The notes beneath the pieces are model-generated. The model was not told the origin of the DNA. It ran no database searches and saw nothing but the letters and a program-made list of their open reading frames with translations. A stretch of DNA of 34,130 nt from Cellulomonas algicola (GTDB lineage Bacteria > Actinomycetota > Actinomycetes > Actinomycetales > Cellulomonadaceae): contig NZ_BHYL01000171.1 of assembly GCF_003851725.1 (NCBI RefSeq), forward strand, positions 1 through 34,130, in the 5' to 3' direction. Below, one piece after another: positions 3,606 to 34,130 of this stretch. Made by a program: the position numbers and the translations under genes. Every line of letters starts with the position of its first letter. Position 1 is the stretch's first letter.

Positions 3606-3611
3606 CCCGGT

Positions 3612-6401
3612 TCAGCGCTCCGTCGTGCGCGCCCGCACCGGGCTGACCGCCTCCTGGGGGGTCAGCGGTGCGGGTGTCGCACGACGGCGCCGCATGAACG
3701 CCTTGTCGATCTCCGCGACGAGCGGCAGCAGGAGCGCGAGCCCGATCGCCGCGAACCACTGCGGGCTCGTGAGCGACTGCGTCGTGAGCCACCCCTGCAG
3801 GAAGTCGAGCTCGGTGGCGAGCACGACGAGCAGCACCGGGACCGTCAGCACCTTGACGGCCGACAGCACGGGCGGCAGCAGCCCGGACTCGGGCTCGCGG
3901 CGCAGGACCAGGCCGGACAGGGTCGACCCGAGGCCCATCACGACGAACGCCATCGTCATGGACGCGCTCGGCTGGTCCTTGGACAGCTCGTCGGGGCCGA
4001 GGACGAGCGGCACGGCGGTCGCGAGGCACAGGACGACGCCGTAGAGGACCCAGCGGCCGATCGCGCGCCGGTTGCCGATCCCGAGCCTCGGGTCGCGCGG
4101 CGGGCGGCTCATGATCTCGGGCCCGACCGGGTCGAGCATGATCGCGATGACGGGCCCGACGCAGACGAAGAAGTTGAGGAACAGCACCATCATCGGCGTG
4201 AGCGCGACGCCGCCGTTGAGGTCCGCGATCGTCGCGAGCAGGAACAGCAGGACCAGGCCGATGAGCTGGCTCATCTGGAACCGGATGTACGCGGTGATCT
4301 TCTGGTAGATGCTGCGGCCGAGCTCGACGGCGTGCACGAGGGTCGAGAAGTTGTCGTCGGTGAGGACGAGGCGCGCGGCCTGCTTGGTGACCTCGCTGCC
4401 GGACCCCATGGCGACGCCGATGTCGGCCTGCTTGATCGCGGCGGCGTCGTTGACGGCGTCGCCGGTCATCGCGACGACGAGCCCCTGCCGCTGCATGAGC
4501 TGCACGAGCCGCAGCTTGTCCTCGGGGGTGACGCGGCCGAAGACGTGCAGGTCGGGCAGCCGGGCGAGCAGCTCGTCGTCGGTCATGCGGGCGAGCTCGG
4601 CGCCGCTGATCGCGCCGGGCGGCAGGCCGAGGTCGGTGCCGATCGCGGACGCGGTGACGGCGTGGTCGCCGGTGATCATGCGGACGTCGATGCCCGCGCG
4701 GTGGGCGATCTCGACGGACACCTTGGCCGACGGCCGCAGGGGGTCCATGATCCCGACCATCCCGACGAACACGAGCTGCTGCACGTACGCCATCGGGTCG
4801 GCGACGATGCCCGCTTCGTCGGCCGGCGTGAGGATGCGCACCGCGAACGCGAGCGTGCGCAGGCCGGACTGCGCGAGCCGGTCCTGCTCGGCGTCGATCG
4901 CGGGCCGCAGCTCGGCGATGTCGACGAACCGGCCGGGCGCGGCGAGCGCGTGCGTGCACCGCTGGAGCACGACGTCGGGCCCACCCTTGACCACCTCGAC
5001 GAGCACGCGTGGCTGGTCGCGCCAGGGCATCCAGTGCGCGGTCGCCATGAACTTGTAGGCGGAGTCGAACGGCACCTCGGCGACGCGCGGATAGGTCCGC
5101 CGGCTCTCCTCGGCGTCGACGCCCAGCTTCGCCGCGAGCACGACGAGGGCGGCCTCGGTGGGGTCGCCGACGACCGCACCGTCGTCCGAGACGAGCGCGT
5201 CGCTCGCGAGGCACAGCCCGTACGCGAGCGGGGTCAGGTCGGGCACCTCGGCACCCGCGGGCGACAGGATCCGACCGGTCTTCGCGTAGCCCGCACCCTC
5301 GACGGTGTAGTGCTGCCCGCCGAGCCAGAGCGCGGTCACCGTCATCTCGTTGAGCGTGAGCGTCCCGGTCTTGTCCGAGTTGATCGCGCTCGTCGCGCCC
5401 AGCGTCTCGACGTCCGCGAGGTTGGCGACGATCGCCTTCGCTGCGGCGAGCTGCTTCGCACCGTACGCGAGCATCGCCTGGACGAACGTCGGCAGACCGG
5501 TCGGGATCGCGGAGATCGCGACGGCGGTCGCGAGGAACAGCAGGTCGCCGATCGGGTCGCCGCGCAGCACGCCGATGACGACGATGAGCGCGACCGCGGA
5601 CCACGCGATCGCGCCGAGCACCTTGGTCAGTGCGTCGAGCTCGCGCTGCAGCGGCGACTTCGTCTTCTCGACCGACGACAGCAGCGTCGCGATGTGGCCG
5701 ATCTGCGTCGTCATGCCGGTCGCCGTGACGAGCAGGGTGCCGGTGCCGCGCGTCACCGCGGTGTTCTGGAACGCCATGTTGGCGCGGTCGCCGAGCGGCA
5801 CGTCCTCGTCCGCGAGCGGGTCGGTCGCCTTGCCGATCGGGGCGCTCTCCCCCGTCAGCGCCGCCTCCTGCGTCTCCATCGTCGCGGTGCGGACCAGCCG
5901 CCCGTCCGCCGGCACGATGTCCCCGGCCTCCAGCTCGACCACGTCGCCCGGCACGAGCTCGTGCGCCGGGACCAGCGAGATTGCGCCGTCGCGCCGCACC
6001 TTCGACATCGGCTCCTGCATCGTCGCGAGCGCGTCGACGCTCTTGCGCGCCTGCATCTCCTGCCGCGTCCCGATGACGACGTTGAGCAGCACGAGGAACC
6101 CGACGATCGCCGCGGTCGAGAACTGCCCGATGACGAGGCTCACGATCGCGACGGCGAGGAGCATGAGGTTCATCGGGTCGCGCACCTGCCCCAGCAGGAC
6201 CGACCACACCGACGGCGGCGCCTGCGCGGTCAGCGTGTTCGGGCCGTACTGCCGCTGGCGCATGCCGACCTCGCCGTCGGCCAGGCCCGTGCGCGGGTCG
6301 GTGCCGAGCGCGCGCGCGACCTCCTCCGCCGTGAGCGCCCACCAGCGCGTGTCGTTGCCGGACGTGCCGGGCGTTGCCGGCGCCTGAGTCGACTGGGTCA
6401 C
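3612..6401 (-). CDS. P-type cation-transporting ATPase with atypical PTGLP motif
   Basis: 929 aa from GTG 6401. Order: Cation_ATPase_N region (about 20-70), two membrane helices, actuator domain with TGES (183-186), M3-M4 with IPTGLP (residues 299-304), phosphorylation motif DKTGT with D343, nucleotide-binding KGGPD (472-476), TGDAVND (646-652) and a C-terminal helix bundle. D343 and the hinge Asp residues are intact, so it should be active. The M4 motif is PTGLP instead of the PEGLP of Ca2+ pumps, and the hinge reads TGDAVNDAAAI instead of TGDGVNDAPAL. The ion is therefore uncertain (Ca2+, Mg2+, Mn2+ and H+ are all possible). Start: an in-frame GTG at 6407 directly abuts the AGGGAGG; GTG 6401 has 6-nt spacing and is preferred. 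Confidence 0.9.
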   Translation of the reverse strand: MTQSTQAPATPGTSGNDTRWWALTAEEVARALGTDPRTGLADGEVGMRQRQYGPNTLTAQAPPSVWSVLLGQVRDPMNLMLLAVAIVSLVIGQFSTAAIVGFLVLLNVVIGTRQEMQARKSVDALATMQEPMSKVRRDGAISLVPAHELVPGDVVELEAGDIVPADGRLVRTATMETQEAALTGESAPIGKATDPLADEDVPLGDRANMAFQNTAVTRGTGTLLVTATGMTTQIGHIATLLSSVEKTKSPLQRELDALTKVLGAIAWSAVALIVVIGVLRGDPIGDLLFLATAVAISAIPTGLPTFVQAMLAYGAKQLAAAKAIVANLADVETLGATSAINSDKTGTLTLNEMTVTALWLGGQHYTVEGAGYAKTGRILSPAGAEVPDLTPLAYGLCLASDALVSDDGAVVGDPTEAALVVLAAKLGVDAEESRRTYPRVAEVPFDSAYKFMATAHWMPWRDQPRVLVEVVKGGPDVVLQRCTHALAAPGRFVDIAELRPAIDAEQDRLAQSGLRTLAFAVRILTPADEAGIVADPMAYVQQLVFVGMVGIMDPLRPSAKVSVEIAHRAGIDVRMITGDHAVTASAIGTDLGLPPGAISGAELARMTDDELLARLPDLHVFGRVTPEDKLRLVQLMQRQGLVVAMTGDAVNDAAAIKQADIGVAMGSGSEVTKQAARLVLTDDNFSTLVHAVELGRSIYQKITAYIRFQMSQLIGLVLLFLLATIADLNGGVALTPMMVLFLNFFVCVGPVIAIMLDPVGPEIMSRPPRDPRLGIGNRRAIGRWVLYGVVLCLATAVPLVLGPDELSKDQPSASMTMAFVVMGLGSTLSGLVLRREPESGLLPPVLSAVKVLTVPVLLVVLATELDFLQGWLTTQSLTSPQWFAAIGLALLLPLVAEIDKAFMRRRRATPAPLTPQEAVSPVRARTTER

Positions 6402-23153: not shown

Positions 23154-24944
23154 GTGCGCCCGCACGTGTGGGCACCCGACGCCCGGAGCGTCGACCTCGT
23201 GCTGCCGGAGACGCGCGAACGCCTCGGCATGCTCCCCGACGGCGACGGCTGGTGGACCGTCAAGCGCGACCTGTCGCACGGCACCGACTACGCGTTCGCG
23301 CTCGACGGCGGCGGTCCTCTGCCCGACCCGCGCAGCGCGTGGCAGCCCGACGGCGTGCACGGGCCGAGCCGCGTCTTCCATCCCGGCCGGTTCACGTGGA
23401 CCGACGAGGGGTGGAGCGGGCTCGACGTCCGCGGACGCGTGGTCTACGAGCTGCACGTCGGCACGTTCACGCCGGGCGGGACCCTCGACAGCGCCGTTGA
23501 CGCCTTGCCGGAGCTCGTGTCGCTCGGCGTCGACGTCGTCGAGCTCATGCCCGTCGCGCCGTTCGACGGGCCGCGCGGCTGGGGCTACGACGGCGTCGGG
23601 CTGTACGCCGTGCACGACGCCTACGGCGGCCCGGAGGCGCTGCAGCGGTTCGTCGACGCCGCGCACGGCCTCGGGCTCGCGGTCTGCCTCGACGTCGTGC
23701 ACAACCACCTCGGCCCGTCCGGCAACTACACCGGCCTGTTCGGCCCGTACGCGACGGACGCCCACCACACGCCGTGGGGCTCCGCGATCAACCTCGACCA
23801 GCCCGGTGCGCACGTCGTGCGCCGGTGGATCGTCGACAGCGCGCTGCGCTGGTTGCGCGACTTCCACGTCGACGCGCTGCGCCTCGACGCCGTCCACGAG
23901 CTGCGCGACGACTCGGAGCAGCACCTGCTCGCGCAGCTCTCCGACGAGGTCGCCGCGCTGTCCGAGCGCGTCGACCGGCCCCTGTCGCTCGTCGCCGAGA
24001 CGGACCTCAACGACGTCGTCAGCGTCGCCCCCACCCCCACCGGGGGCTGGGGCATGACCGCGCAGTGGGCCGACGACGTGCACCACGCCCTGCACGCGCT
24101 GCTGACCGGTGAGCGGCACGGCTACTACGTCGACTTCGGCACGCCCGCCACGCTCCGGCACGCGATGACCCGCGTGTTCGTGCACGACGGCGGCTTCTCG
24201 ACGTTCCGCGACCGGGAGTGGGGCCGGCCTGTCCCGAGCGGGACCGACGGGCACCGGTTCGTCGTCAGCACGCAGACGCACGACCAGGTCGGCAACCGCG
24301 CGATCGGCGACCGGCCCGCCGAACGCCTCGACGCCGGCACCCTCGCCGGGTCCGCCGCCCTGCTGCTCCTGTCCCCCTTCACGCCCATGCTGTTCCAGGG
24401 CGAGGAGTGGGGCACGCGCACCCCGTTCCAGTTCTTCACGTCGTTCCCCGACCCCGAGCTGGGCCGGCTCGTGAGCGAGGGACGCCGCTCGGAGTTCGGC
24501 GAGCACGGCTGGGCCGACCTGTACGGCGGACCCGTCGAGGTGCCCGACCCGCAGGACGAGGCGACCTTCCGGCGGTCTGTCCTCGACCGGTCCGAGCGCT
24601 CCGAGCCGCCGCACGACCGGCTGCTCGACTGGTACCGCGAGCTGATCGCGCTGCGCCGGTCCGTCCCCGACCTCGCGTCGGGCGACCTGGCCGCGACCGA
24701 CCTCACGTGGGACGGCCCGGACTCCTCCGACGGTCCGTGGGAGGGCGTGCTCGTGCTGCACCGTGGCGCGGCGCGTGTCGTCGTCAACCTCACCGACGCC
24801 GAGGGCCGCGTGCCGCTCCCCTCCGACGCGCCGCTGGACGTCGCGGCCGCGTGGGAGCCGTGCACGCTCGAGCCGGGCAGCGAACCGCACGTGATGGTCC
24901 CCGCCCGTTCGGTCGCCGTCCTCGTGCCCGCCCTGGCGGACTGA
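23154..24944 (+). CDS. treZ: Malto-oligosyltrehalose trehalohydrolase TreZ
   Basis: 596 aa, GH13. It releases trehalose from maltooligosyl-trehalose made by TreY. A short N-terminal beta domain starts VWAPDARSVDLVLPE, followed by VYELHVGTFTPGG (98-109), the TIM barrel with nucleophile D245 in LRLDAVHEL and acid E282 in LVAETD, and QTHDQVGNRAIGDR. It lacks the long N-terminal extension of glycogen branching enzymes, which separates it from GlgB. GTG 23154 follows treY after 3 bp. With GlgX it completes the TreX-Y-Z route. Confidence 0.95.
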   Translation: MRPHVWAPDARSVDLVLPETRERLGMLPDGDGWWTVKRDLSHGTDYAFALDGGGPLPDPRSAWQPDGVHGPSRVFHPGRFTWTDEGWSGLDVRGRVVYELHVGTFTPGGTLDSAVDALPELVSLGVDVVELMPVAPFDGPRGWGYDGVGLYAVHDAYGGPEALQRFVDAAHGLGLAVCLDVVHNHLGPSGNYTGLFGPYATDAHHTPWGSAINLDQPGAHVVRRWIVDSALRWLRDFHVDALRLDAVHELRDDSEQHLLAQLSDEVAALSERVDRPLSLVAETDLNDVVSVAPTPTGGWGMTAQWADDVHHALHALLTGERHGYYVDFGTPATLRHAMTRVFVHDGGFSTFRDREWGRPVPSGTDGHRFVVSTQTHDQVGNRAIGDRPAERLDAGTLAGSAALLLLSPFTPMLFQGEEWGTRTPFQFFTSFPDPELGRLVSEGRRSEFGEHGWADLYGGPVEVPDPQDEATFRRSVLDRSERSEPPHDRLLDWYRELIALRRSVPDLASGDLAATDLTWDGPDSSDGPWEGVLVLHRGAARVVVNLTDAEGRVPLPSDAPLDVAAAWEPCTLEPGSEPHVMVPARSVAVLVPALAD

Positions 24945-24968
24945 CCGTCGGCGTCCGGTGCCGTTGCG

Positions 24969-24986
24969 CGCGGGCGCGCGCCCGCG
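24969..24986. terminator. Palindromic hairpin between treZ and zapE (bidirectional terminator)
   Basis: The 18-bp self-complementary CGCGGGCGC/GCGCCCGCG lies in the 61-bp gap between convergent stops. Flanking GGCGTCCGG and CGGACCGCC can extend the structure. Confidence 0.5.
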
Positions 24987-25005
24987 ACGCCCCCGGACCG
25001 CCGCG

Positions 25006-26073
25006 TCAGGCGGTGACGCGGGCCGCGCCGTCGGCGGCCAGCGCGCCGAGGCGGGACAGGGCGCGGTAGTACTTCTTGCGGTAGCCGCCGCGCAGCATCT
25101 CGGCCGAGAACAGGTCGTCCTCGCCCCCGCCGCCCAGCAGCACGGGCACGTCGCGGTCGTAGAGCCGGTCGACGAGCACGACGAGGCGCAGTGCGACGTC
25201 CTGCGTCGGCACGGGCGCGACGCCCGTGAGGCCGACGAGCTCGACGCCGTCGAGCAGCGCGCCGTACCGGCTGGGGTGCACGCGGGCGAGGTGGTCGAGC
25301 AGCGCGGGGAACGCGTCGAGCGTCGCGCCGGGGACGTCGGCGACGGCGCGCTGCACCTCGGCGTCGGCGAGCCCTTCGGCGTCGGTCACGACGGACCGGT
25401 GCCGGTAGTCCTGCCCGTCGACGCGCAGCACCTCGAACCGGGCGGCGAGCGCCTGGATCTCGCGCAGGAAGTCGTCCGCGGCGAACCGGCCCTCGCCGAG
25501 GGACTCGGGCAGCGTGTTCGACGTGGCGGCGAGCGCGACGCCGCGGTCGGCGAGCTCGCGCAGCAGGCGGGACATGAGGACGGTGTCGCCGGGGTCGTCG
25601 AGCTCGAACTCGTCGATGCAGACGAGCTTCTTGCCCGCGAGCGCCTCGACGGTCGGCAGGAACCCGAGAGCGCCGACGAGGTTGGTGTACTCGACGAACG
25701 TGCCGAACGCGGCGTCCTGGGTGCCGACGGCGTGCGCGAGGGACGCGAGCAGGTGGGTCTTGCCGACGCCGAAGCCGCCGTCGAGGTAGACGGCGGGCGC
25801 GGTGCGCCGGGACGCCCGCCGGAACAGGCCGCCACGACCGGACGCCCCGTCGGTGATGGTGCGGGCGACCGCGCGCAGGCGGTCGACGGCGTCGCGCTGC
25901 GAGGGGTGCGCCGCGTCGGGCACGTAGGTGTCGAACGACTCACCGGCGAAGTGGCGCGGCGGGACGAGCTCGGCGAGGAGCCGCTCGGGCGGGACGACGG
26001 GGGTGCGCTCGGTGAGCGAGGCCGGTCCCGGGTGCGCGCCACCGGGGCGGGCGGCGGGGTCGACGGCTGTCAC
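25006..26073 (-). CDS. zapE: AFG1/ZapE-family ATPase
   Basis: 355 aa from GTG 26073. Walker A is GGFGVGKTHLL, Walker B is LVCIDEFELDDP, and sensor-like ATSNTLPESLGEGRFAADDFLREI follows. RHFAGESFDTYVPDAAHPSQRDAV at the N-terminus is typical. In E. coli ZapE acts on the FtsZ ring under stress; actinobacterial members are annotated the same way but their role is not established. Start: a TAGGCT hexamer lies 8 nt upstream of GTG 26073, suggesting a leaderless mRNA; ATG 26097 (363 aa) is the alternative. Divergent from the sulfur operon. Confidence 0.85.
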   Translation of the reverse strand: MTAVDPAARPGGAHPGPASLTERTPVVPPERLLAELVPPRHFAGESFDTYVPDAAHPSQRDAVDRLRAVARTITDGASGRGGLFRRASRRTAPAVYLDGGFGVGKTHLLASLAHAVGTQDAAFGTFVEYTNLVGALGFLPTVEALAGKKLVCIDEFELDDPGDTVLMSRLLRELADRGVALAATSNTLPESLGEGRFAADDFLREIQALAARFEVLRVDGQDYRHRSVVTDAEGLADAEVQRAVADVPGATLDAFPALLDHLARVHPSRYGALLDGVELVGLTGVAPVPTQDVALRLVVLVDRLYDRDVPVLLGGGGEDDLFSAEMLRGGYRKKYYRALSRLGALAADGAARVTA

Positions 26074-26087
26074 GACGGACAAGCCTA
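26073..26087 (-). promoter_or_regulatory. Leaderless promoter of zapE
   Basis: Minus strand TAGGCT (26087-26082), 8-nt spacer, GTG 26073; no Shine-Dalgarno. Confidence 0.45.
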
Positions 26088-26173
26088 CGTCCGGCATCCG
26101 GGACGCACGCGCGGGGGTGAGCGGTGTCACTGCTGGGCACGTGGGCAGGCGCGTTCGCGCGGCTTCTACACCC

Positions 26174-26190
26174 GGACTGGACGTCCGTCC
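26174..26190. promoter_or_regulatory. Imperfect palindrome in the zapE/sulfur operon gap (operator candidate)
   Basis: GGACTGGACGTCCGTCC, a 17-bp near-palindrome centred on GGACGTCC, lies about 80 bp upstream of the presumed sulfur-operon transcription start. That position would suit an activator or repressor of sulfate assimilation; its identity is unknown. Confidence 0.35.
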
Positions 26191-26252
26191 CACATGCCGA
26201 TGCGCTCGTCTCACCATGCGGAACCCTTCTCCCGTGTCACCCGTTCGTCTGA

Positions 26253-26265
26253 CAGCCTCGTCGGG
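26253..26265 (+). promoter_or_regulatory. Leaderless promoter of the cysteine-rich leader and sulfur operon
   Basis: CAGCCT (26253-26258), 6-nt spacer, GTG 26265. An inverted repeat TCACCCG (26237-26243) / CGGGTGA (26262-26268) brackets the -10 and the presumed start site and could be an operator. Confidence 0.5.
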
Positions 26266-26357
26266 TGATCGCGACCGGGTCCCCCGCCATGTGTCGGTGC
26301 TGCTGCGCCGCCGCGGGCCCGGCCATGTCGATGTGCTGCTGTCCGCGGAGAGACTGA
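26265..26357 (+). CDS. Cysteine-rich leader peptide of the sulfate assimilation operon
   Basis: 30 codons from GTG 26265 to TGA 26355-26357. The peptide contains seven cysteines in two clusters, MCRCCC (codons 9-14) and MCCC (codons 23-26), and ends PRRD. GTG 26265 is 6 nt after a -10-like CAGCCT and has no ribosome binding site, so it is probably translated from the 5' end of the mRNA. ATG 26289 is an alternative start that keeps all the cysteines. Polycysteine leaderless ORFs upstream of cysteine and sulfate genes are known as cysteine-responsive attenuators in mycobacteria. The position 108 nt before sir fits that role. Ribosomes would slow at the Cys codons when Cys-tRNA is scarce, changing the folding of the sir leader. 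Confidence 0.75.
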   Translation: MIATGSPAMCRCCCAAAGPAMSMCCCPRRD

Positions 26358-26466
26358 CCCCGCCCCACGTCCCCCACGCTCGGGCGCGCGGTCTGCGCCC
26401 CGAGTCCCGTCCCCCCGGCGGTGGGTGCAGCACGCACGTCCACGATCCCCCGGAGGTAGCGCCCGA
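26297..26466 (+). promoter_or_regulatory. Candidate attenuator with alternative pairings before sir
   Basis: Three features are visible. GTGCTGC occurs in both Cys-codon clusters (26297-26303 and 26333-26339) and is complementary to GCAGCAC at 26427-26433; next to it CCGCCG (26308-26313) can pair with CGGCGG (26416-26421). CTCGGGCGC (26379-26387) can form a local hairpin with GCGCCCCGAG (26395-26404). The TCGGGCGC part can instead pair perfectly with GCGCCCGA (26459-26466), covering the spacer and first base of the sir start. The SD is GGAGG at 26452-26456. The pairings were found by eye; no folding energies were computed. Confidence 0.5.
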
Positions 26467-28127
26467 TGGCGCAGACCAGGATCGCCCCGCCCGCCGCTCG
26501 CCACGAGGGCCAGTGGGCGTTCGACGAGCAGCGCGAGCCGCTCAACGGCAACGAGAAGCTCAAGCAGGAGGACGACGGTCTCCACGTCCGCCACCGCATC
26601 GAGACGATCTACGCCCAGCAGGGCTTCGACTCCATCCCCGGTGACGACCTGCGCGGTCGGATGCGCTGGTGGGGCCTGTACACCCAGCGCAAGCCCGGGA
26701 TCGACGGCGGCAAGACCGCGACGCTCGAGCCGCACGAGCTCGAGGACTCGTACTTCATGCTGCGCGTCCGCTGCGACGGCGGCACCCTCACGCTGGGCCA
26801 GCTCCGCACGGTCGCGGGCATCTCGCGCGAGTTCGGCCGCGACACCGCGGACATCACGGACCGGCAGAACATCCAGCTGCACTGGGTGCGCATCGAGGAC
26901 GTCCCGGAGATCTGGCGTCGCCTCGAGTCCGTCGGGCTGACGACGCAGGAGGCGTGCGGCGACGTCCCGCGCGTCATCATCGGCTCCCCCGTCGCGGGCG
27001 TCGCGGCCGACGAGATCGTCGACGGCACCCCCGCGATCGAGGAGATCCACCGCCGCTACATCGGCGACCCGGCGTTCTCGAACCTGCCCCGCAAGTTCAA
27101 GACGGCGGTCAGCGGCTCGCCGCACCAGGACGTCGCGCACGAGATCAACGACGTCGCGTTCGTCGGCGTCGTGCACCCCGAGCTCGGTCCCGGGTTCGAC
27201 GTGTGGGTCGGCGGCGCGCTGTCCACCAACCCGATGCTCGGCAAGCGGCTCGGCGCGTTCGTCACGCTCGAGCAGATCCCCGACGTGTGGGTCGGCGTCG
27301 TGAGCATCTTCCGCGACTACGGCTACCGCCGGCTGCGTACGCGTGCCCGCCTGAAGTTCCTGCTCGCCGACTGGGGGCCCGAGCTGTTCCGGCAGGTGCT
27401 GGAGGAGGAGTACCTCGGCTGGACCATGGCCGACGGTCCCGCTCCTCCCCCGCCGCCGACCGGCCGCCGCGACCACGTCGGCGTGCACCCGCAGAAGGAC
27501 GGCCGCTTCTACGTGGGCGCCGCCCCGACCGTCGGGCGCGTGTCGGGCCCGCTGCTCGACGCCGTCGCCGACCTCGTGGACGCCGCCGGGTCCGACCGGG
27601 TGCAGCTCACGACCGAGCAGAAGCTCGTGGTGCTCGACGTCGCCGCCGACCGCGTCGACGCGCTCGTCGAGGGCCTGGAGGCGCTCGGGCTGCAGGTCCG
27701 CAACGCGTCGACGTTCCGTCGCGGCACGATCGCCTGCACGGGCATCGAGTTCTGCAAGCTCGCGATCGTCGAGACGAAGGCCCGTGCGGCGCTCATCATC
27801 GGTGAGCTCGAGCAGCGCCTGCCGACGTTCGACCAGCCGATCACGATCAACGTCAACGGCTGCCCCAACTCGTGCGCGCGCATCCAGACGGCCGACATCG
27901 GCCTCAAGGGCGCGCTCGCGGGCGGCGAGGAGGGCTACCAGGTCCACCTCGGCGGCGGGCTCGGCCTCACCAGCGGGCTCGGCAAGACGCTGCGCGGCCT
28001 GCGCGTCCCGTCGTCCGAGCTCCCCGACTACCTCGAGCGGGTGACGCGGAAGTTCGACGAGCAGCGCCTCGAGGGCGAGCTCTTCGCCGAGTGGGTGCAG
28101 CGCGCGGCGGAGGAGGACCTGCGATGA
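26466..28127 (+). CDS. sir: Sulfite reductase (ferredoxin), SirA/NirA type
   Basis: 553 aa; six-electron reduction of sulfite to sulfide. Two ferredoxin-like/SiR repeats are present. The siroheme-[4Fe-4S] site is C424 and C430 (ACTGIEFCKLA) plus C466 and C470 (NVNGCPNSCAR). Y72 in GLYTQRKPG and C164 in TQEACGD are 92 residues apart, matching the Tyr-Cys covalent pair of the M. tuberculosis enzyme (Y69-C161), which favours sulfite over nitrite as substrate. ATG 26466 has GGAGG 9 nt upstream. First structural gene of the operon; its stop overlaps the next start (ATGA). Confidence 0.95.
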   Translation: MAQTRIAPPAARHEGQWAFDEQREPLNGNEKLKQEDDGLHVRHRIETIYAQQGFDSIPGDDLRGRMRWWGLYTQRKPGIDGGKTATLEPHELEDSYFMLRVRCDGGTLTLGQLRTVAGISREFGRDTADITDRQNIQLHWVRIEDVPEIWRRLESVGLTTQEACGDVPRVIIGSPVAGVAADEIVDGTPAIEEIHRRYIGDPAFSNLPRKFKTAVSGSPHQDVAHEINDVAFVGVVHPELGPGFDVWVGGALSTNPMLGKRLGAFVTLEQIPDVWVGVVSIFRDYGYRRLRTRARLKFLLADWGPELFRQVLEEEYLGWTMADGPAPPPPPTGRRDHVGVHPQKDGRFYVGAAPTVGRVSGPLLDAVADLVDAAGSDRVQLTTEQKLVVLDVAADRVDALVEGLEALGLQVRNASTFRRGTIACTGIEFCKLAIVETKARAALIIGELEQRLPTFDQPITINVNGCPNSCARIQTADIGLKGALAGGEEGYQVHLGGGLGLTSGLGKTLRGLRVPSSELPDYLERVTRKFDEQRLEGELFAEWVQRAAEEDLR

Positions 28128-28315
28128 CCGACTCCGGACAGCGCGCCGTCCCGTACTACTGCCCGTTCTGCGCGAGCGAGGACCTGTGGCCCGCGGGCGA
28201 GACGCACGGCCAGTGGGAGTGCCGGTCGTGCGCCCGCGCGTTCGCGCTGCGGTTCGTCGGCCTGGCGTCCGCCGCGACCACCACCCCGGCAGCCCCGACG
28301 GGAGGAGACCGATGA
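28124..28315 (+). CDS. Small zinc-ribbon-like protein of the sulfur operon
   Basis: 63 aa. Two CxxC pairs, C13-x2-C16 (YYCPFCASEDLW) and C33-x2-C36 (WECRSCARAF), form a rubredoxin/zinc-ribbon-like knuckle, followed by an Ala/Thr/Pro tail. It overlaps sir upstream and cysH downstream by ATGA. To my knowledge a small ORF lies at the same place in Streptomyces sulfate-assimilation operons, but its function is not established. It may bind zinc or iron and serve sulfite or APS reductase as an electron carrier or assembly factor (inference). Confidence 0.8.
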   Translation: MTDSGQRAVPYYCPFCASEDLWPAGETHGQWECRSCARAFALRFVGLASAATTTPAAPTGGDR

Positions 28316-29031
28316 GCACCGCGACCCCCGCGATCGCCGACCTCACGCCCGACGAGCTGCGCGCGTTCGCCGAGCAGGCGGGCCGCGAGCTCGAGGGTGC
28401 GCACCCGAGCGAGATCCTGGCGTGGGCGGGCCGCACGTTCGGCGACGACCTCGTCGTCGCGTCGTCGATGGGCGACGAGGTGCTCGTCGACCTCGTCGCG
28501 AAGGCGGTCCCCGGCGCGAACGTCATCTTCCTCGACACGGGCTACCACTTCGCCGAGACCATCGGCACGCGCGACTACTACGCCGACTTCACGGACATCC
28601 GGCTCCGCACGGTCCTGCCGCTGCGCACCGTCGCGGAGCAGGACGCCGAGCACGGCCCGCGCCTGCACGACCGCGACCCGAACCTGTGCTGCGCGCTGCG
28701 CAAGGTCGAGCCGCTCGAGCGCGGCCTCGCCCCGTACACCGCGTGGGTCACGGGCATGCGCCGCGAGGACGCCCCGACCCGCACCGACATCCCGGTCGTC
28801 GGCTGGGACGCCAAGCGGTCGAAGGTCAAGCTCAACCCGATCGCGGCGTGGACGCAGGCCGACGTGGACGCCTACGTCGCCGAGCACCACGTCGTGCTGA
28901 ACCCGCTGCGGCAGGCCGGCTACGCGTCGATCGGCTGCGCCCCCTGCACGCGTGCGACGGCCCCGGGCGAGGACCCGCGGGCCGGACGCTGGTCCGGTAC
29001 CTCCAAGACGGAATGCGGTCTGCACACATGA
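28312..29031 (+). CDS. cysH: Adenylyl-sulfate (APS) reductase, 4Fe-4S type
   Basis: 239 aa. It reduces adenylyl sulfate to sulfite with thioredoxin. The ATP-pyrophosphatase-like core has SSMGDEVLVD (51-60) and FLDTGYHF (73-80). Cluster ligands C126-C127 (NLCCALRK) and C209-x2-C212 (GCAPCTRA) mark the [4Fe-4S] APS-reducing class, and the catalytic Cys is C235 in KTECGLH. No cysC (APS kinase) is present and CysN is not fused to one, consistent with direct APS reduction. ATG 28312 overlaps the upstream stop and has GGAGGAG before it; its stop overlaps cysD. Confidence 0.95.
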   Translation: MSTATPAIADLTPDELRAFAEQAGRELEGAHPSEILAWAGRTFGDDLVVASSMGDEVLVDLVAKAVPGANVIFLDTGYHFAETIGTRDYYADFTDIRLRTVLPLRTVAEQDAEHGPRLHDRDPNLCCALRKVEPLERGLAPYTAWVTGMRREDAPTRTDIPVVGWDAKRSKVKLNPIAAWTQADVDAYVAEHHVVLNPLRQAGYASIGCAPCTRATAPGEDPRAGRWSGTSKTECGLHT

Positions 29032-29978
29032 CGACTGAGGCCACGGCTCCCCCCACCGCGGCGGCACCCTCGCAGCGACCGACCCAGCGCCTGACCCAGC
29101 TGGACGCGCTCGAGTCCGAGGCGATCCACGTGATGCGCGAGGTCGCCGGCGAGTTCGAGCGGCCCGTGCTGCTCTTCTCGGGCGGCAAGGACTCGATCGT
29201 CATGCTGCACCTGGCGCGCAAGGCGTTCTGGCCCGCGCCCGTGCCGTTCGCGGTCATGCACGTCGACACGGGCCACAACTTCCCCGAGGTCATCGCCTAC
29301 CGCGACGCGACGGTCGAGGAGCACGGGCTGCGGCTCGTCGTCGCGAGCGTGCAGGACGCGATCGACGACGGCCGCGTCGTGGAGCGCCCCGACGGCTCGC
29401 GCAACCCGCTCCAGACGGTCCCGCTGCTCGACGGCATCACCGCGCACCGCTTCGACGCAGTGTTCGGCGGTGGCCGCCGCGACGAGGAGAAGGCACGCGC
29501 CAAGGAGCGGATGTTCTCGCTGCGCGACGAGTTCGGGCAGTGGGACCCGCGCCGGCAGCGTCCCGAGCTGTGGGACCTGTACAACGGCCGCCACAAGCCG
29601 GGCGAGCACGTGCGCGTCTTCCCGCTGTCGAACTGGACCGAGCTCGACGTGTGGCGCTACATCGAGCGCGAGCGGATCGAGCTGCCGTCGATCTACTACG
29701 CGCACGAGCGCGAGGTGTTCCTGCGCGACGGCATGTGGCTCGCGCCCGGCGAGTGGGGCGGCCCGCGCACGGGCGAGACGCTCGAGACCCGCACGGTCCG
29801 CTACCGGACGGTCGGCGACATGAGCTGCACCGGTGCCGTCGAGTCGACGGCCGCGACCGTCGCCGACGTCATCGAGGAGGTGGCCGTGAGCCGCCTCACC
29901 GAGCGCGGGGCGACCCGCGCCGACGACCGGGCCTCGGAGGCCGCCATGGAGGACCGCAAGCGCGAGGGCTACTTCTGA
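29028..29978 (+). CDS. cysD: Sulfate adenylyltransferase subunit 2
   Basis: 316 aa. It makes APS from sulfate and ATP together with the GTPase CysN. The PP-loop SGGKDSIVMLHLARKAF, DTGHNFPEVIAYRD, GGGRRDEEKARAKERMFSLRDEFGQWDP and WTELDVWRYIERERIELPSIYYAHER are diagnostic, and the C-terminus ends KREGYF as in the family. A low-complexity Thr/Ala/Pro stretch occupies the first 20 residues. ATG 29028 overlaps the cysH stop; its own stop shares one base with the cysN start (TGATG). Confidence 0.95.
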   Translation: MTTEATAPPTAAAPSQRPTQRLTQLDALESEAIHVMREVAGEFERPVLLFSGGKDSIVMLHLARKAFWPAPVPFAVMHVDTGHNFPEVIAYRDATVEEHGLRLVVASVQDAIDDGRVVERPDGSRNPLQTVPLLDGITAHRFDAVFGGGRRDEEKARAKERMFSLRDEFGQWDPRRQRPELWDLYNGRHKPGEHVRVFPLSNWTELDVWRYIERERIELPSIYYAHEREVFLRDGMWLAPGEWGGPRTGETLETRTVRYRTVGDMSCTGAVESTAATVADVIEEVAVSRLTERGATRADDRASEAAMEDRKREGYF

Positions 29979-31414
29979 TGACGACGACCACCGAGCTCGC
30001 CTCCTCCGACCCGACCGTGCACGCGCAGCGCGACCTGCTGCGCCTCGCCACGGCCGGCTCGGTCGACGACGGCAAGAGCACCCTCATCGGCCGCCTGCTC
30101 TACGACACGAAGTCCGTGCTGGCCGACCAGCTGAGCGCGGTCGAGCGGGCGACCGCCGCGCGCGGCGGGTCCGAGGTCGGCGCCGTCGACCTGGCGCTGC
30201 TCACCGACGGCCTGCGCGCCGAGCGTGAGCAGGGCATCACGATCGACGTCGCCTACCGGTACTTCTCGACGGCCCGGCGCGCGTTCGTGCTCGCCGACAC
30301 CCCCGGTCACGTGCAGTACACGCGCAACATGGTGACCGGCGCGTCCACCGCCGAGCTCGCGATCGTCCTGGTCGACGCGCGCAAGGGCGTGCTCGAGCAG
30401 ACCCGCCGGCACGCGACCATCACCGCGCTGCTGGGCGTCCCGCACGTCGTGCTCGCGGTCAACAAGATGGACCTGGTCGACTTCGACGAGGCGACGTTCC
30501 GCACCATCGCCGACGACTTCGCCCGGTACGCCGACGCGATCGGCCTGACCGACGTGCGGGCCGTCCCGCTGTCGGCGCTCGCCGGCGACAACGTCGTCGA
30601 CCGCTCCGACCGCACGCCCTGGTACGACGGCCCGACGCTGCTCGAGCACCTCGAGTCCGTCCCCGTCGGGCGCGACGCGCACGCCGAGGCGTTCCGGTTC
30701 CCCGTGCAGGTCGTCATCCGGCCGCGCAACGCCGAGCACCCGGACTACCGCGGCTACGCGGGCCGGATCGCGTCGGGGGTGGTGCGTGTCGGCGACGACG
30801 TCACCGTCCTGCCGTCCGGCAAGACGAGCACCGTCACGGGCATCGACACGTTCGACGGCCCGCTCGACGAGGCGCACGCGCCGCAGTCCGTCACGCTGCG
30901 CCTCGCCGACGACGTCGACGTGGCCCGCGGCGACGTGCTCGTGCCCACGGGCGAGACGGTCACCGTCGGCGCCGACCTGGAGGGCACCGTCTGCTGGCTC
31001 GCCGAGCGGCGCAGCGTCCTCGGCGCGCGCGTCCTCGTGCGCGTCGGCACGCGCACCGTCCGGGCGCTCCTGCGCGAGGTCAACGCCCGCCTCGACATCG
31101 ACACCCAGACCGTCGAGGTGTGGGACGGCGTCGACACCCAGTACACGGTCGACGCGACCGACACGTCGTCGGACACCGCGCCGCGCGCGCTCACGCTCAA
31201 CGCGATCGGTCGCGTGCGGCTGCGGCTCGCCGAGCCCGTCGTCCTCGACGACTACGCGACGCACCGCAGCACGGGCGGCTTCCTGGTCGTCGACCCCGCC
31301 GACGGGACGACGCTCGCCGCGGGGATGATCGGCCCGACGCTGCTCGACCGCCTCACGCCCACGCCGCCGCCCAGCGCGGCCGACGACGACTGGCTCGCCG
31401 GGGCCGGCATATGA
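29978..31414 (+). CDS. cysN: Sulfate adenylyltransferase subunit 1 (GTPase)
   Basis: 478 aa, EF-Tu-like GTPase that drives APS formation by CysD. GTP motifs: GSVDDGKST (27-35), DTPGH (107-111), NKMD (162-165). The switch region reads TDGLRAEREQGITIDVAYRYFST. Domains II and III follow, and the protein ends after these; there is no C-terminal APS kinase domain. That agrees with the APS reductase type of CysH. The stop overlaps an in-frame ATG for the siroheme gene (ATGA at 31411-31414). Confidence 0.95.
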   Translation: MTTTTELASSDPTVHAQRDLLRLATAGSVDDGKSTLIGRLLYDTKSVLADQLSAVERATAARGGSEVGAVDLALLTDGLRAEREQGITIDVAYRYFSTARRAFVLADTPGHVQYTRNMVTGASTAELAIVLVDARKGVLEQTRRHATITALLGVPHVVLAVNKMDLVDFDEATFRTIADDFARYADAIGLTDVRAVPLSALAGDNVVDRSDRTPWYDGPTLLEHLESVPVGRDAHAEAFRFPVQVVIRPRNAEHPDYRGYAGRIASGVVRVGDDVTVLPSGKTSTVTGIDTFDGPLDEAHAPQSVTLRLADDVDVARGDVLVPTGETVTVGADLEGTVCWLAERRSVLGARVLVRVGTRTVRALLREVNARLDIDTQTVEVWDGVDTQYTVDATDTSSDTAPRALTLNAIGRVRLRLAEPVVLDDYATHRSTGGFLVVDPADGTTLAAGMIGPTLLDRLTPTPPPSAADDDWLAGAGI

Positions 31415-31436
31415 CGGACGCGCCGCCCGCGACCGG

Positions 31437-31450
31437 CAGACTGGACGACA
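31437..31450 (+). promoter_or_regulatory. Possible internal leaderless promoter of the siroheme synthase gene
   Basis: CAGACT (31437-31442), 7-nt spacer, ATG 31450. It would let siroheme synthase be made independently of the cysteine-controlled operon. Confidence 0.4.
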
Positions 31451-32676
31451 TGCCTCGTCATCCCCTGCTGCTGGACGTCGCCGGGCGGCGCGTGGTCATG
31501 GTCGGCGGCGGTCCCGTCGCGGCGCGGCGCGTGGCGCGGCTCGTCGACGACGGCGCGGACGTGCTGGTCGTCGCGCCGCGCCTGTGCGAGGACCTGGCGG
31601 ATGCGGTCGCGCGCGGGCTCGTGCACTGGGCGGAGCGCGAGTACGCGACCGGCGACCTCGACGGCGCGTGGCTCGTGCACACCGCGACCGGTGAACCGGC
31701 CGTCGACGACGCCGTCGCCGCGGACGCCGAGGCGGCGCGCACCTGGTGCGTGCGTGCCGACGACGCCGCTCGCTCCACCGCATGGACGCCCGCGGTCGCG
31801 CGCGTCGACGACGTGACGGTCGCCGTGTCCACGGGCCGCGACCCGCGCCGTGCCGCCGCCCTGCGCTCCGCGCTCCAGGTGCTCCTGGACACCGGCGAGC
31901 TCCCGCTGCGGCACCACCGCCGCGACCCCGTCGGCACCGTCACGCTCGTCGGGGGCGGTCCGGGCGACCCGGGTCTCGTCACGACGCGTGGCCGGCGCGC
32001 CGTCGCCGAGGCCGACGTGGTCGTCGTCGACCGCCTCGCACCGCGCGCGCTGCTCGACACGCTCGACCCCGACGTCGAGGTCGTCGAGGCCGGCAAGTCC
32101 CCGCACTCGCACACGCTCACGCAGGAGCAGATCAACGAGGTCCTCGTCGAGCGCGCCCTGCGCGGCCTGCGGGTGGTCCGGCTCAAGGGCGGCGACCCGT
32201 TCGTCCTCGGCCGCGGCGGCGAGGAGGTGCAGGCCTGCCGCGCGGCGGGCGTGCCCGTCGAGGTCGTGCCGGGCGTGACGAGCGCGATCGCCGTCCCCGG
32301 CGTGGCCGGCGTCCCCGTCACGCACCGCGGGGTGTCCCGCCAGGTCACGATCCTGTCCGCGCACGACAGCGCGCCCGACTGGCCCTCGATCGCCGCGCTC
32401 GACGGCACGCTCGTGCTGCTCATGGGCGTCGGCCGGCTCGCCGAGCACGCCGCGACGCTCGTCGCGCACGGCAAGGACCCCGCGACGCCCGTCGCCGTCG
32501 TCGAGAACGGCACGCTGCCCGGGCAGCGCACGACCGTCGGCACGCTCGCGGACATCGCCGACCGCGCCGCCGCGCGTGGCGTCGGCAACCCCGCGGTGGT
32601 CGTCGTCGGCGAGGTCGCCGCGCTCGCCGACGTCCTGGGCCCGCACGACCGCGCGACCGGCCGCCTGCCGGGCTGA
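31450..32676 (+). CDS. cysG: Siroheme synthase (precorrin-2 dehydrogenase/uroporphyrinogen-III methyltransferase fusion)
   Basis: 408 aa. The N-terminal NAD-binding domain (HPLLLDVAGRRVVMVGGGPVAARR) oxidises precorrin-2. From about residue 160 the SUMT domain starts at GTVTLVGGGPGDPGLVT, with VRLKGGDPFVLGRGGEE, PGVTSAIAVPGVAGVPVTHR and VVENGTLPGQRTTVGTL. It makes the sirohaem cofactor of sulfite reductase. It is shorter than E. coli CysG because the domain between the two enzymes is reduced, so chelatase activity is uncertain. Start: ATG 31450 begins at the family-typical sequence and has a -10-like hexamer. ATG 31411 overlaps the cysN stop but lacks a ribosome binding site; both may be used. 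Confidence 0.85.
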   Translation: MPRHPLLLDVAGRRVVMVGGGPVAARRVARLVDDGADVLVVAPRLCEDLADAVARGLVHWAEREYATGDLDGAWLVHTATGEPAVDDAVAADAEAARTWCVRADDAARSTAWTPAVARVDDVTVAVSTGRDPRRAAALRSALQVLLDTGELPLRHHRRDPVGTVTLVGGGPGDPGLVTTRGRRAVAEADVVVVDRLAPRALLDTLDPDVEVVEAGKSPHSHTLTQEQINEVLVERALRGLRVVRLKGGDPFVLGRGGEEVQACRAAGVPVEVVPGVTSAIAVPGVAGVPVTHRGVSRQVTILSAHDSAPDWPSIAALDGTLVLLMGVGRLAEHAATLVAHGKDPATPVAVVENGTLPGQRTTVGTLADIADRAAARGVGNPAVVVVGEVAALADVLGPHDRATGRLPG

Positions 32677-32725
32677 CGTGCGGTTTCCCACACCGCCCCG
32701 GCTGTCCTGCCCCGCCGACCTGGCC

Positions 32726-32739
32726 TAGCGTGAAGGCCG
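32726..32739 (+). promoter_or_regulatory. Leaderless promoter of the RibD_C reductase gene
   Basis: TAGCGT (32726-32731), 7-nt spacer, GTG 32739. No ribosome binding site. Confidence 0.5.
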
Positions 32740-33551
32740 TGCTGGAGACCGACGACCTGCCCCCGCTCGACGTCCTGCTGCCCCTCGAACGCGCCGGTGA
32801 GCGCCTCGAGCCCCGCCCCGACGAGGCCGAGCTGCTCGCCCTCTTCACCGACCGCCTGCCCGTCGACCCACCGCGCGGCGTGCACGTCCGGGTCAACATG
32901 GTGAGCTCGGTCGACGGCGCCGCGACCGGCGTCGACCAGCGCAGCGGCACGATCAACGACCGTGCCGACTTCCGGGTGTTCCGGACGCTGCGGGCGCTCG
33001 CCGACGTCGTGCTCGTCGGCGCGCAGACGGCCCGGGTCGAGCGCTACACCGCGCTCGACGTGCCCGACGGCCTCGCCGAGGCGCGCCGTGCCTTCGGCCG
33101 GGCTCCCGAGGTCGAGCTCGCGATCGTGAGCGCGAGCGGGGACCTGCCGCCGGGGCTGCTCGACGAGGAGCGGCCCCCGATCGTCGTCACGACGAGCGCG
33201 AGCCCGCGCCTCGACGCGCTGCGCGAGCAGATCGGTCCCGAGCGCGTCATCGTGACCGAGTCCGACGCCGGTGTCGTCGACCTGCGGGTCGCGCTCGCCG
33301 CGCTCGGCGCCCGCGGCCTGTCGCACGTGCTCGCGGAGGGTGGGCCCACGCTCCTCGGTCAGCTGCTGGAGTCCGACCTGGTCGACGAGCTGTGCGTGAC
33401 GACGAGCCCGCTGCTCGTCGGCGGCCCCGCGCCGCGCATCGTGCACAGCACCGACTGGTTCAACCCCGCACGTCACCTGCGGCCGCTGCACCTGCTGCAC
33501 GGCGACGGTGTGCTGCTGGGACGCTGGCAGGTGGTTAGGCTCGGCGCGTGA
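32739..33551 (+). CDS. Pyrimidine reductase family protein (RibD C-terminal domain)
   Basis: 270 aa. The RibD_C/DHFR-like fold is shown by HVRVNMVSSVDGAATG (substrate/NADPH binding), DFRVFRTLRALADVVLVGAQTAR and SHVLAEGGPTLLGQLLESDLVDELCVT. The deaminase domain of RibD is absent. Relatives reduce a riboflavin precursor, but the actinobacterial stand-alone group is not functionally defined. GTG 32739 fits the leaderless pattern; GTG 32730 overlaps the -10 hexamer and is unlikely. Its stop overlaps the next start (GTGA). Confidence 0.85.
   Translation: MLETDDLPPLDVLLPLERAGERLEPRPDEAELLALFTDRLPVDPPRGVHVRVNMVSSVDGAATGVDQRSGTINDRADFRVFRTLRALADVVLVGAQTARVERYTALDVPDGLAEARRAFGRAPEVELAIVSASGDLPPGLLDEERPPIVVTTSASPRLDALREQIGPERVIVTESDAGVVDLRVALAALGARGLSHVLAEGGPTLLGQLLESDLVDELCVTTSPLLVGGPAPRIVHSTDWFNPARHLRPLHLLHGDGVLLGRWQVVRLGA
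33536..33548 (+). promoter_or_regulatory. Leaderless promoter nested in the end of the reductase gene
   Basis: TAGGCT (33536-33541), 6-nt spacer, GTG 33548. It lies in the last codons of the upstream gene, so the downstream gene may have its own mRNA in addition to read-through. Confidence 0.5.
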
Positions 33552-34033
33552 CCGACACGATCCTGGTCCTGGTCGAGGACACCCTGACCGCGTCCGACGT
33601 CGAGCACCTGCTGTCGCTGCACGACGGCGAGGAGCTCGCGTACCGGGTGCTCGTCCCCGCCGACAGCGACCGCCCGCTGCTCTCGACGATCATCGACAAC
33701 CTCAGCCTCGGCGAGCTGCGCGAGGCCTTCGACCGCGCACGCGGCAAGGAGCCGAGCGTCCGCGAGGCCCGCGCGACCGCCGCCGAGCAGCTCGCGGGCA
33801 GCGTCGCCGCGTTCACCGCCGCCGGGCGCACGGCGACGGGCGAGATCACCGAGGACGACCCGATCCCCGCCGTGCGTGCGGCCGTCGCCGCGGGCGGGGT
33901 CCGCGAGGTCGCCGTCGTCACCTATCCGCACGCGCTCGAGGACACGTTCCACCGCGACTGGGCGTCGCGGGCCCGCGAAGACCTCCAGGTGCCCGTGCTG
34001 CACCTGTACGCGGGCACCAGCGAGCTCGGCTGA
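33548..34033 (+). CDS. USP-like alpha/beta protein, function unknown
   Basis: 161 aa. The pattern of strands and helices (TILVLVEDT, YRVLVPADSDRPLL, a long charged helix, ITEDDPIPAVRAAVAAGGVREVAVVTYPHALEDTFHRDWASRAREDLQVPVLHLYAG) resembles a universal-stress-protein-like Rossmann fold. The classical GxxG-x9-GS ATP site is not visible. GTG 33548 overlaps the reductase stop as GTGA. It is the last gene in the window and is followed by a terminator. I do not recognise a specific family. Confidence 0.7.
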   Translation: MTDTILVLVEDTLTASDVEHLLSLHDGEELAYRVLVPADSDRPLLSTIIDNLSLGELREAFDRARGKEPSVREARATAAEQLAGSVAAFTAAGRTATGEITEDDPIPAVRAAVAAGGVREVAVVTYPHALEDTFHRDWASRAREDLQVPVLHLYAGTSELG

Positions 34034-34097
34034 CCCGCTCGGCCTGACCGCGCTCCCCGCGGACGCGGCGGCCGCCCGGCCCTGACACGACGACGAC

Positions 34098-34126
34098 GGC
34101 CCGTCCGCGCGGTGCGCGGGCGGGCC
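34098..34126. terminator. Hairpin terminator at the right end
   Basis: 13-bp stem GGCCCGTCCGCGC (34098-34110) / GCGCGGGCGGGCC (34114-34126) with one G-T pair and a 3-nt loop, 64 nt after the last stop. It may serve either strand. Confidence 0.65.
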
Positions 34127-34130
34127 GGCG

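Follow-up and report, generated by a model that had tools for sequence, protein, structure and literature searches.

Sulfate assimilation genes and a cysteine-rich leader ORF

The window analysed here is the whole 34,130 nt stretch of Cellulomonas algicola DNA (contig NZ_BHYL01000171.1). It carries sir, cysH, cysD, cysN and a cysG-like siroheme synthase gene, in that order, behind a short Cys-rich leader ORF; the ORF upstream of the leader, on the opposite strand, is zapE (Table 1). An earlier note on this DNA had described a complete sir-cysH-cysD-cysN operon. The genes do stand in this order, the cysG-like gene has to be added after cysN, and the name sir is based on context. Whereas cysH, cysD, cysN and cysG passed the NCBIfam cut-offs, the sir protein reached the cut-off of none of the NCBIfam models to which it gave a match, the best being ferredoxin-nitrite reductase, NirA family and CysI; because of this, the name sir was taken from the cysH-cysD-cysN-cysG context. 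The sir of the window and that of C. biazotea were 95% identical in their best segment.

Table 1. Features of the leader region and of the genes behind it (window coordinates).
Feature	Position	Strand	Basis or remark
Conserved motif TCTCACCATGCGGA, possible activator site or promoter part	26209..26222	+	alignment
CAGCCT, -10-like hexamer (xAxxxT)	26253..26258	+	6 or 7 nt from start codon in 51/51
Leader ORF rich in Cys (GTG start, 30 codons and a TGA stop), probably leaderless	26265..26357	+	sequence, conservation
First Cys cluster, CRCCC	26292..26306	+	variable in relatives
Second Cys cluster, CCC	26334..26342	+	last Cys codon at -5 from stop, 51/51
Strand 2, GACCCCGCCCC, starts inside stop codon, complementary to strand 3	26356..26366	+	conserved in alignment
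Segment rich in C and poor in G, where Rho might load	26358..26381	+	composition
Conserved long hairpin	26382..26441	+	covariation, arm test, fold energy
Hairpin base pairs	26382-26386 with 26437-26441	+	GGGCG with CGTCC
Hairpin pairs	26388-26390 with 26433-26435	+	GCG with CGC
GGTCTGCGCC, complementary at every position to 26468-26477 (sir start)	26390..26399	+	
Hairpin pairs	~26393-26400 with 26423-26430	+	TCTGCGCCC strand with GGGTGCAG
Inner hairpin	26407-26411 with 26417-26421	+	letters differ between clades
GGAGGT, Shine-Dalgarno of sir	26452..26457	+	
sir, sulfite/nitrite reductase family	26466..28127	+	ORF and profile match
cysH, phosphoadenylyl-sulfate reductase	28186..29031	+	ORF and NCBIfam match
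cysD	29100..29978	+	domain limits are those of the model match within ORF 28422-29978
cysN	30014..31414	+	5' limit approximate, from model match within ORF 29540-31414
cysG-like siroheme synthase	31459..32676	+	5' limit approximate, model match within ORF 31120-32676

The leader ORF encodes the peptide VIATGSPAMCRCCCAAAGPAMSMCCCPRRD, whose 30 sense codons, seven of them for Cys, are followed by a TGA stop at 26355-26357. The coordinates, frame and sequence given for it in the earlier note were exact, including the MCRCCC and MCCC runs with seven Cys, and inspection of the sequence confirmed the CAGCCT hexamer 6 nt before the GTG, the lack of a Shine-Dalgarno (SD) sequence and the gap of 108 nt between the leader stop and the sir ATG. 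Among the 99 short ORFs (10-60 aa) of the window the leader has the most Cys, the next best having five. The 386-nt upstream region was also simulated 20,000 times with a first-order Markov model, and 32 of the simulated sequences equalled the leader by containing a plus-strand ORF that had seven or more Cys and was no longer than 60 aa. The leader ORF is real, and its conservation, described below, outweighs these chance statistics as evidence.

The motif at 26209-26222 lies 42 nt before the leader start and is kept within the genus. Four exact matches to the pattern TCTCNNNATNCGGA were found in the C. algicola genome, this one included; the other three have no Cys-run leader behind them, and the motif was rejected as a sulfur regulon motif. 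Frame +2 of the leader region (RHVSVLL...GHVDVLL) was considered as a relic of an RHVDL leader and judged to be probably due to chance.

Conservation of the leader in Cellulomonas

Within the genus, sir was present at E<=1e-100 in 55 of 81 genomes. Five diverged sir loci (L133-L137; 70-72% identity, with other leaders) were left out, as was one genome (G016, locus L086) whose contig ends 94 nt upstream of sir. This gave 51 distinct upstream regions, from 49 genomes plus the named loci L012 and L013, with eight named loci representing identical copies. Each of the 49 Cellulomonas genomes in which sir is typical and the DNA before it can be read had an in-frame Cys-rich leader. The earlier note had held that the absence of a Cys-rich ORF from close relatives would speak against its proposal; this was looked for, and the ORF was there in 49/49. 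It had also expected conserved Cys codons and a variable linker, and all 49 of these genomes show that pattern.

The ORF was kept in 51/51 distinct upstream regions, with 4-8 Cys in each. Twelve length classes were seen, the shortest leader having 24 codons and the longest 43, and the stop-to-sir distances included all three residues modulo 3 (n=51). The first Cys cluster and the linker were variable over the 51 sequences, and the 3' block of the leader was conserved in frame, all 12 length classes agreeing. A Cys codon was found at position -5 from the stop in 51/51 and at -6 in 49/51; codon -5 was TGT in 50/51 and codon -3 was CGG in 48/51. At 26340-26348, the TGT at -5 and the CGG at -3 are fixed beyond the needs of the peptide, and no partner with which this strand would pair was found.

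The start codon was GTG in 49 of the 51 regions and ATG in two. An xAxxxT hexamer preceded it by 6 nt in 49 cases and by 7 nt in the other two; among 2951 control positions, 88 fitted the pattern. Letters resembling an SD sequence stood before the leader in 1/51 and before sir in 48/51. Judging from the sequence, the leader would be translated from a leaderless mRNA start.

A covarying hairpin behind the leader stop

The region between the leader stop and sir is conserved in the genus, as seen in the alignment, and contains a long hairpin (26382-26441; Table 1). In the plain alignment A1, made from 19 close sequences, no covariation was seen (one two-sided pair, 447/500 shuffles as high), and a first fold obtained from a plain alignment was discarded, the variable inner hairpin having been mis-aligned. 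In a model-guided alignment fitted to the structure (A2; 59 rows, 57 distinct, with one spurious row, window 3600-3707, kept), 16 of the 23 hairpin pairs had two-sided changes. The two-sided change cells in A2 numbered 139, versus 57.8 in shuffles, of which 0/500 were as high; slid versions gave 14-40. Since A2 leans to the structure and holds a spurious row, weight was placed on an alignment-free arm test. The 5' and 3' arms of the hairpin paired better with each other than with foreign arms (0/5000 permutations, with relatedness not removed), and the inner strands also paired better with their own than with foreign partners (0/5000, relatedness again not removed). The fold energy had a mean z of -2.76 against dinucleotide shuffles and was below -1 in 51/51 sequences; the variable middle alone folded no better than its mononucleotide shuffles (mean z -0.29).

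A covariance model built from 19 of the 51 sequences matched at the expected place in 58/58 loci of Cellulomonas and its sister genus. The weakest true match scored 24.1 bits, and the best chance match, at window 3600-3707, 23.4 bits. Over 47 other loci the best E was 0.049, and in the C. algicola genome the next match, among the 150 of 10,341 first-look candidates that were scored, had an E of 3.78, the weak window match not being among those listed. Among the loci searched, the hairpin RNA was detected only in Cellulomonas and the sister genus. A small hairpin at 26382-26400 was considered as the functional one and rejected: it had no own-versus-foreign preference (1280/5000) and was rare with the stop region hidden (mean 0.02).

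Exposure of the stop region and opening of the hairpin

The sequence GACC(C)CGCCC at the leader stop is the complement of the 5' base of the hairpin, a relation that an attenuator would require. Folds were run from just behind a modelled ribosome to just before the SD sequence. With the stop region hidden, the folding model closed the hairpin base with P>0.5 in 50/51 sequences. The mean base probability was 0.89 with the stop region hidden and 0.53 with it exposed (n=51), the drop exceeding 0.3 in 26/51. In the window it went from 0.93 to 0.11, the base being lost to pairing of strand 2 with the 3' half of the hairpin (0.64) and to a small hairpin. Pairing of strand 2 with strand 3 had P>0.5 in 16/51, was 0.03 in the window and showed a weak own-versus-foreign preference (198/5000).

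Controls were run in which the letters of the exposed region were replaced. With the same 14 nt shuffled, the base probability was 0.55, compared with 0.53 for the real letters, and with random upstream 14-mers it fell to 0.61; the real strand 2 outdid its own shuffles in only 23/51. Letters in shuffled order open the hairpin just as well as the real ones, so the folds lend strand 2 no specific support. As regards mutually exclusive helices, the hairpin covaries and, in the folding model, opens on exposure of the stop region, and shuffled letters act alike.

Proposed mechanism, its output and alternatives

The ORF and its conservation, the leaderless anatomy, the fixed distance from the Cys codons to the stop and the covarying hairpin are all directly visible at these loci. 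Together they point to control of the operon by cysteine, and the locus is probably a ribosome-mediated cysteine attenuator of sir-cysH-cysD-cysN-cysG. The mRNA would start at or beside the GTG at 26265 and be translated leaderless, and the ribosome would read the Cys-tRNA level at both Cys clusters, the second of which always ends 15 nt ahead of the stop. With Cys-tRNA plentiful, a ribosome at the stop would cover 26356-26366, the hairpin at 26382-26441 would close and expression would be low. A stall on the Cys codons would leave the stop region free, the hairpin base would be opened and expression would be high; given the usual footprint, a ribosome stalled while its A site holds the last Cys codon should leave strand 2 uncovered. 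The closed hairpin would act on transcription, either alone or via Rho at 26358-26381, or on sir initiation. The sensing half of this scheme has good support, unlike the strand 2 switch in its exact form, which on the modelled folds is best taken as tentative, being rather more likely to be wrong than right.

If the ORF instead encoded a small functional Cys-rich protein that binds metal or takes part in redox chemistry, with no regulatory role, its seven Cys in 30 residues and its conservation would be expected. However, outside its final residues and the Cys runs the peptide varies in both sequence and length, conservation runs beyond the stop as RNA structure, and the last Cys codon (TGT in 50/51) is constrained beyond the amino acid; such a protein is very improbable. 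The same low probability is given to a conserved RNA element that an untranslated ORF overlies by chance. Open frames are indeed common in GC-rich DNA, and a second frame was open in 50/51 regions, but the leader frame has a mean of 6.4 Cys against 2.3 and 0.9 in the other two, the start anatomy is kept, length differences amount to whole codons while the 3' block stays conserved, and other genera have different Cys-rich leaderless ORFs in this position.

As to the output of the cysteine attenuator, no U-tract or intrinsic terminator was found before sir, a result compatible with Rho as well as with translational control. In the Rho reading, the C-rich segment would load Rho when the ribosome terminates, and a stall or local pairing would keep Rho off. 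This is a serious contender, somewhat short of an even chance. The segment at 26358-26381 is the sole 24-mer so C-rich and G-poor on the plus strand of the window (1/34,106 positions), the corresponding segments of the 51 relatives average 72% C and 11% G, and Rho was proposed in 2005 for mycobacterial and Propionibacterium acnes cys leaders, as excerpts of that report have it (PMC1262725). Against this, the segment is short (17-25 nt), a stalled ribosome would leave it exposed too, and composition alone is weak evidence. A purely translational output of the same sensing, in which 26390-26399 or a start-codon hairpin would block sir once the leader is cleared, is plausible and a little less probable than the Rho reading. 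The 10-nt complementarity of 26390-26399 to 26468-26477 is exact in the window, with 10/10 pairs (G-U allowed) in 22/51 relatives and 9/10 in 15/51. Codon 2 of sir is GCG in 51/51, one of two single-codon sites among 127 invariant fourfold-degenerate positions in 34 full-length genes, and the M. smegmatis system is termed translation attenuation in excerpts of PMC13236596. Yet in only 19/51 sequences were 10 or fewer of 200 shuffles as good at forming the leader-to-start duplex (mean z -1.15), the pairing had no own-versus-foreign preference (2732/5000), and the GCG might alternatively be due to the start-codon hairpin, which is predicted at ~0.63-0.66 in all states. Further, folds that included the sir start, with ribosome footprints masked, gave no consistent change in the modelled access to the SD sequence and start codon between ribosome states, a point against a translational output. 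Overall, termination is the slightly preferred output of the attenuator, at close to even probability, and translational control in general comes slightly below it.

The sir start codon lies within a possible hairpin, GCGCC..ATGGCGC (26452-26477, and in relatives), and the constraint there looks to be at the RNA level.

Relation to known cysteine leaders

To our knowledge, the Cys-rich leaders tested so far are mycobacterial. Polycysteine leaderless short ORFs of mycobacteria confer cysteine-dependent attenuation on the downstream operon, according to excerpts of PMC9031893, PMC9094748 and PMC13236596, and conserved leaderless Cys-rich ORFs, one of them with ribosomes on it, appear in excerpts of Shell 2015 (PMC4633059). 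The Cellulomonas leader resembles these in being a leaderless short ORF with Cys runs directly upstream of sulfur genes. Unlike them, its peptide in the window matches neither of the NCBIfam models for mycobacterial leaders, it has two Cys clusters, the second of which keeps a set distance of five codons from the stop, and behind it lies a hairpin with covariation; among the loci searched, this RNA is specific to Cellulomonas and the sister genus. The idea in the earlier note of the same type of control in another lineage thus agrees with the anatomy, but not with the mycobacterial leader models of NCBIfam, which do not recognise the peptide. By analogy, the kind of system is most likely already known from the mycobacterial polycysteine attenuators, here in another lineage and with an RNA of its own. 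New in the present analysis are the constant distance from the last Cys codon to the stop, the hairpin with its covariation, and the turnover of such leaders across the family.

Cys leaders were predicted in Mycobacterium, Propionibacterium acnes and Bifidobacterium longum by Seliverstov 2005 (PMC1262725). In excerpts of that paper, no conserved terminator hairpins are given for the mycobacterial leaders and Rho is suggested, no further attenuator parts are described, and the mode of regulation is called unknown. Those leaders, as excerpted, share with the Cellulomonas leader Cys runs near the stop, a place upstream of cys genes and the lack of an obvious terminator, and their polypyrimidine stretches, considered to be Rho sites, have a counterpart in the C-rich segment; the conserved hairpin that follows the Cellulomonas leader sets it apart. 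To predictions that, in those excerpts, had no further attenuator part, the Cellulomonas locus adds a hairpin and a geometry, and because the hairpin covaries and the geometry is fixed, the question of transcription versus translation becomes approachable by paired mutations. It also places such a leader in a genus of free-living bacteria. In the open-licence literature covered, no report of a cysteine leader peptide or of cysteine attenuation in Cellulomonas was found, and the names Ms4527A and Ms5788A were not found among the matches listed.

As in trp/ilv-type attenuators, leader codons specify the end product and the position of the ribosome would be the signal; unlike them, the Cellulomonas leader has no U-tract terminator and its start is presumably leaderless. 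Tandem Cys codons in a uORF together with an RNA structure are also found in uORFC-8-2, located before cysS in Rhodobacterales (excerpts of PMC8632094); unlike the Cellulomonas leader, uORFC-8-2 has an intrinsic terminator with a U-run, and both the gene and the phylum are different. In S. lividans, the 'metL' leader MSTTSDRTPATEATTTPGARCMCRRMCAF, located before metNIQ, has three Cys codons near its end (PMC8079986, table 4, seen as an excerpt); it may be a leader for cysteine instead of methionine.

Annotation libraries miss leaders of this kind: nothing in NCBIfam, Pfam or Rfam matched the leader of the window. Its peptide hit no NCBIfam family at E<=1, including NF042936 (leader_Ms4527A), NF042933 (leader_Ms5788A) and NF042934 (cis_reg_atten), and no Pfam model; Rfam 15, run over 24000-34130 at E<=1, gave nothing in the leader region and one weak match elsewhere. 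Over the 81 genomes of the genus, NF042936 gave 14 weak matches at E<=0.01 and none above the cut-off; the weak match in the C. algicola genome lies on another contig, not in the window.

Leaders in other genera and a second leader type

A further 45 sir loci were inspected, namely the five diverged ones and 40 that belong to other genera of the family and were selected out of 147 sir-bearing genomes. With a strict leaderless criterion (TANNNT 5-8 nt before the start of an ORF of <=70 aa that has >=3 Cys), a Cys ORF was found at 26 of the 45 loci, compared with 3/900 shuffled controls. The seven sister-genus loci (L147-L153) had a putative Cys-rich ORF in place without the TA hexamer, and the other 12 showed neither pattern by these criteria, two of them (L133 and L134) carrying a leader of the RxHVDL type. 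At the level of sequence, conservation of a Cys leader holds for the family in a looser form. In six loci from other genera of the family (L157, L160, L166, L168, L175 and L177), the leader ends in CCR, CCCR or CCCC at the stop; the sensor geometry there would be unlike that of Cellulomonas, since the Cys run sits right at the stop.

An RRHVDL-type leader was found before sir in 67/70 non-Cellulomonas loci, mostly Streptomyces; one such leader scored above the NCBIfam cis_reg_atten cut-off and below that of the Ms4527A model. The leaders described by NF042934 (Streptomyces-type RRHVDL) are likewise leader peptides before sir, and are also present before the diverged sir of L133 and L134. They differ from the leader of the window in usually having a single Cys near the end, while the window peptide has no RRHVDL motif in frame.

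A broader reading, which is speculative and rather unlikely to be right in full, would be that the Cys leaders of actinobacteria each have a dedicated RNA partner, a hairpin gated by the stop region, with every genus rebuilding both peptide and RNA. As parts of this reading, the position of the ribosome 15 nt past the last Cys codon would set a gate controlled by Rho or by initiation, and the leaders would form a fast-turnover attenuator lineage leading from the one-Cys Streptomyces leader to the polycysteine leaders.

The C. algicola genome contains a second leader (L191; contig C30, 20234-20296, minus strand) that ends in ERRAVDLRRVASALCRPPHRPAGR and scores above the cis_reg_atten cut-off, so that leaders of the Cys-run type and of the cis_reg_atten type coexist within one genome. 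It lies ~190 nt before a candidate symporter ORF, which we take to resemble a dicarboxylate/cystine symporter.
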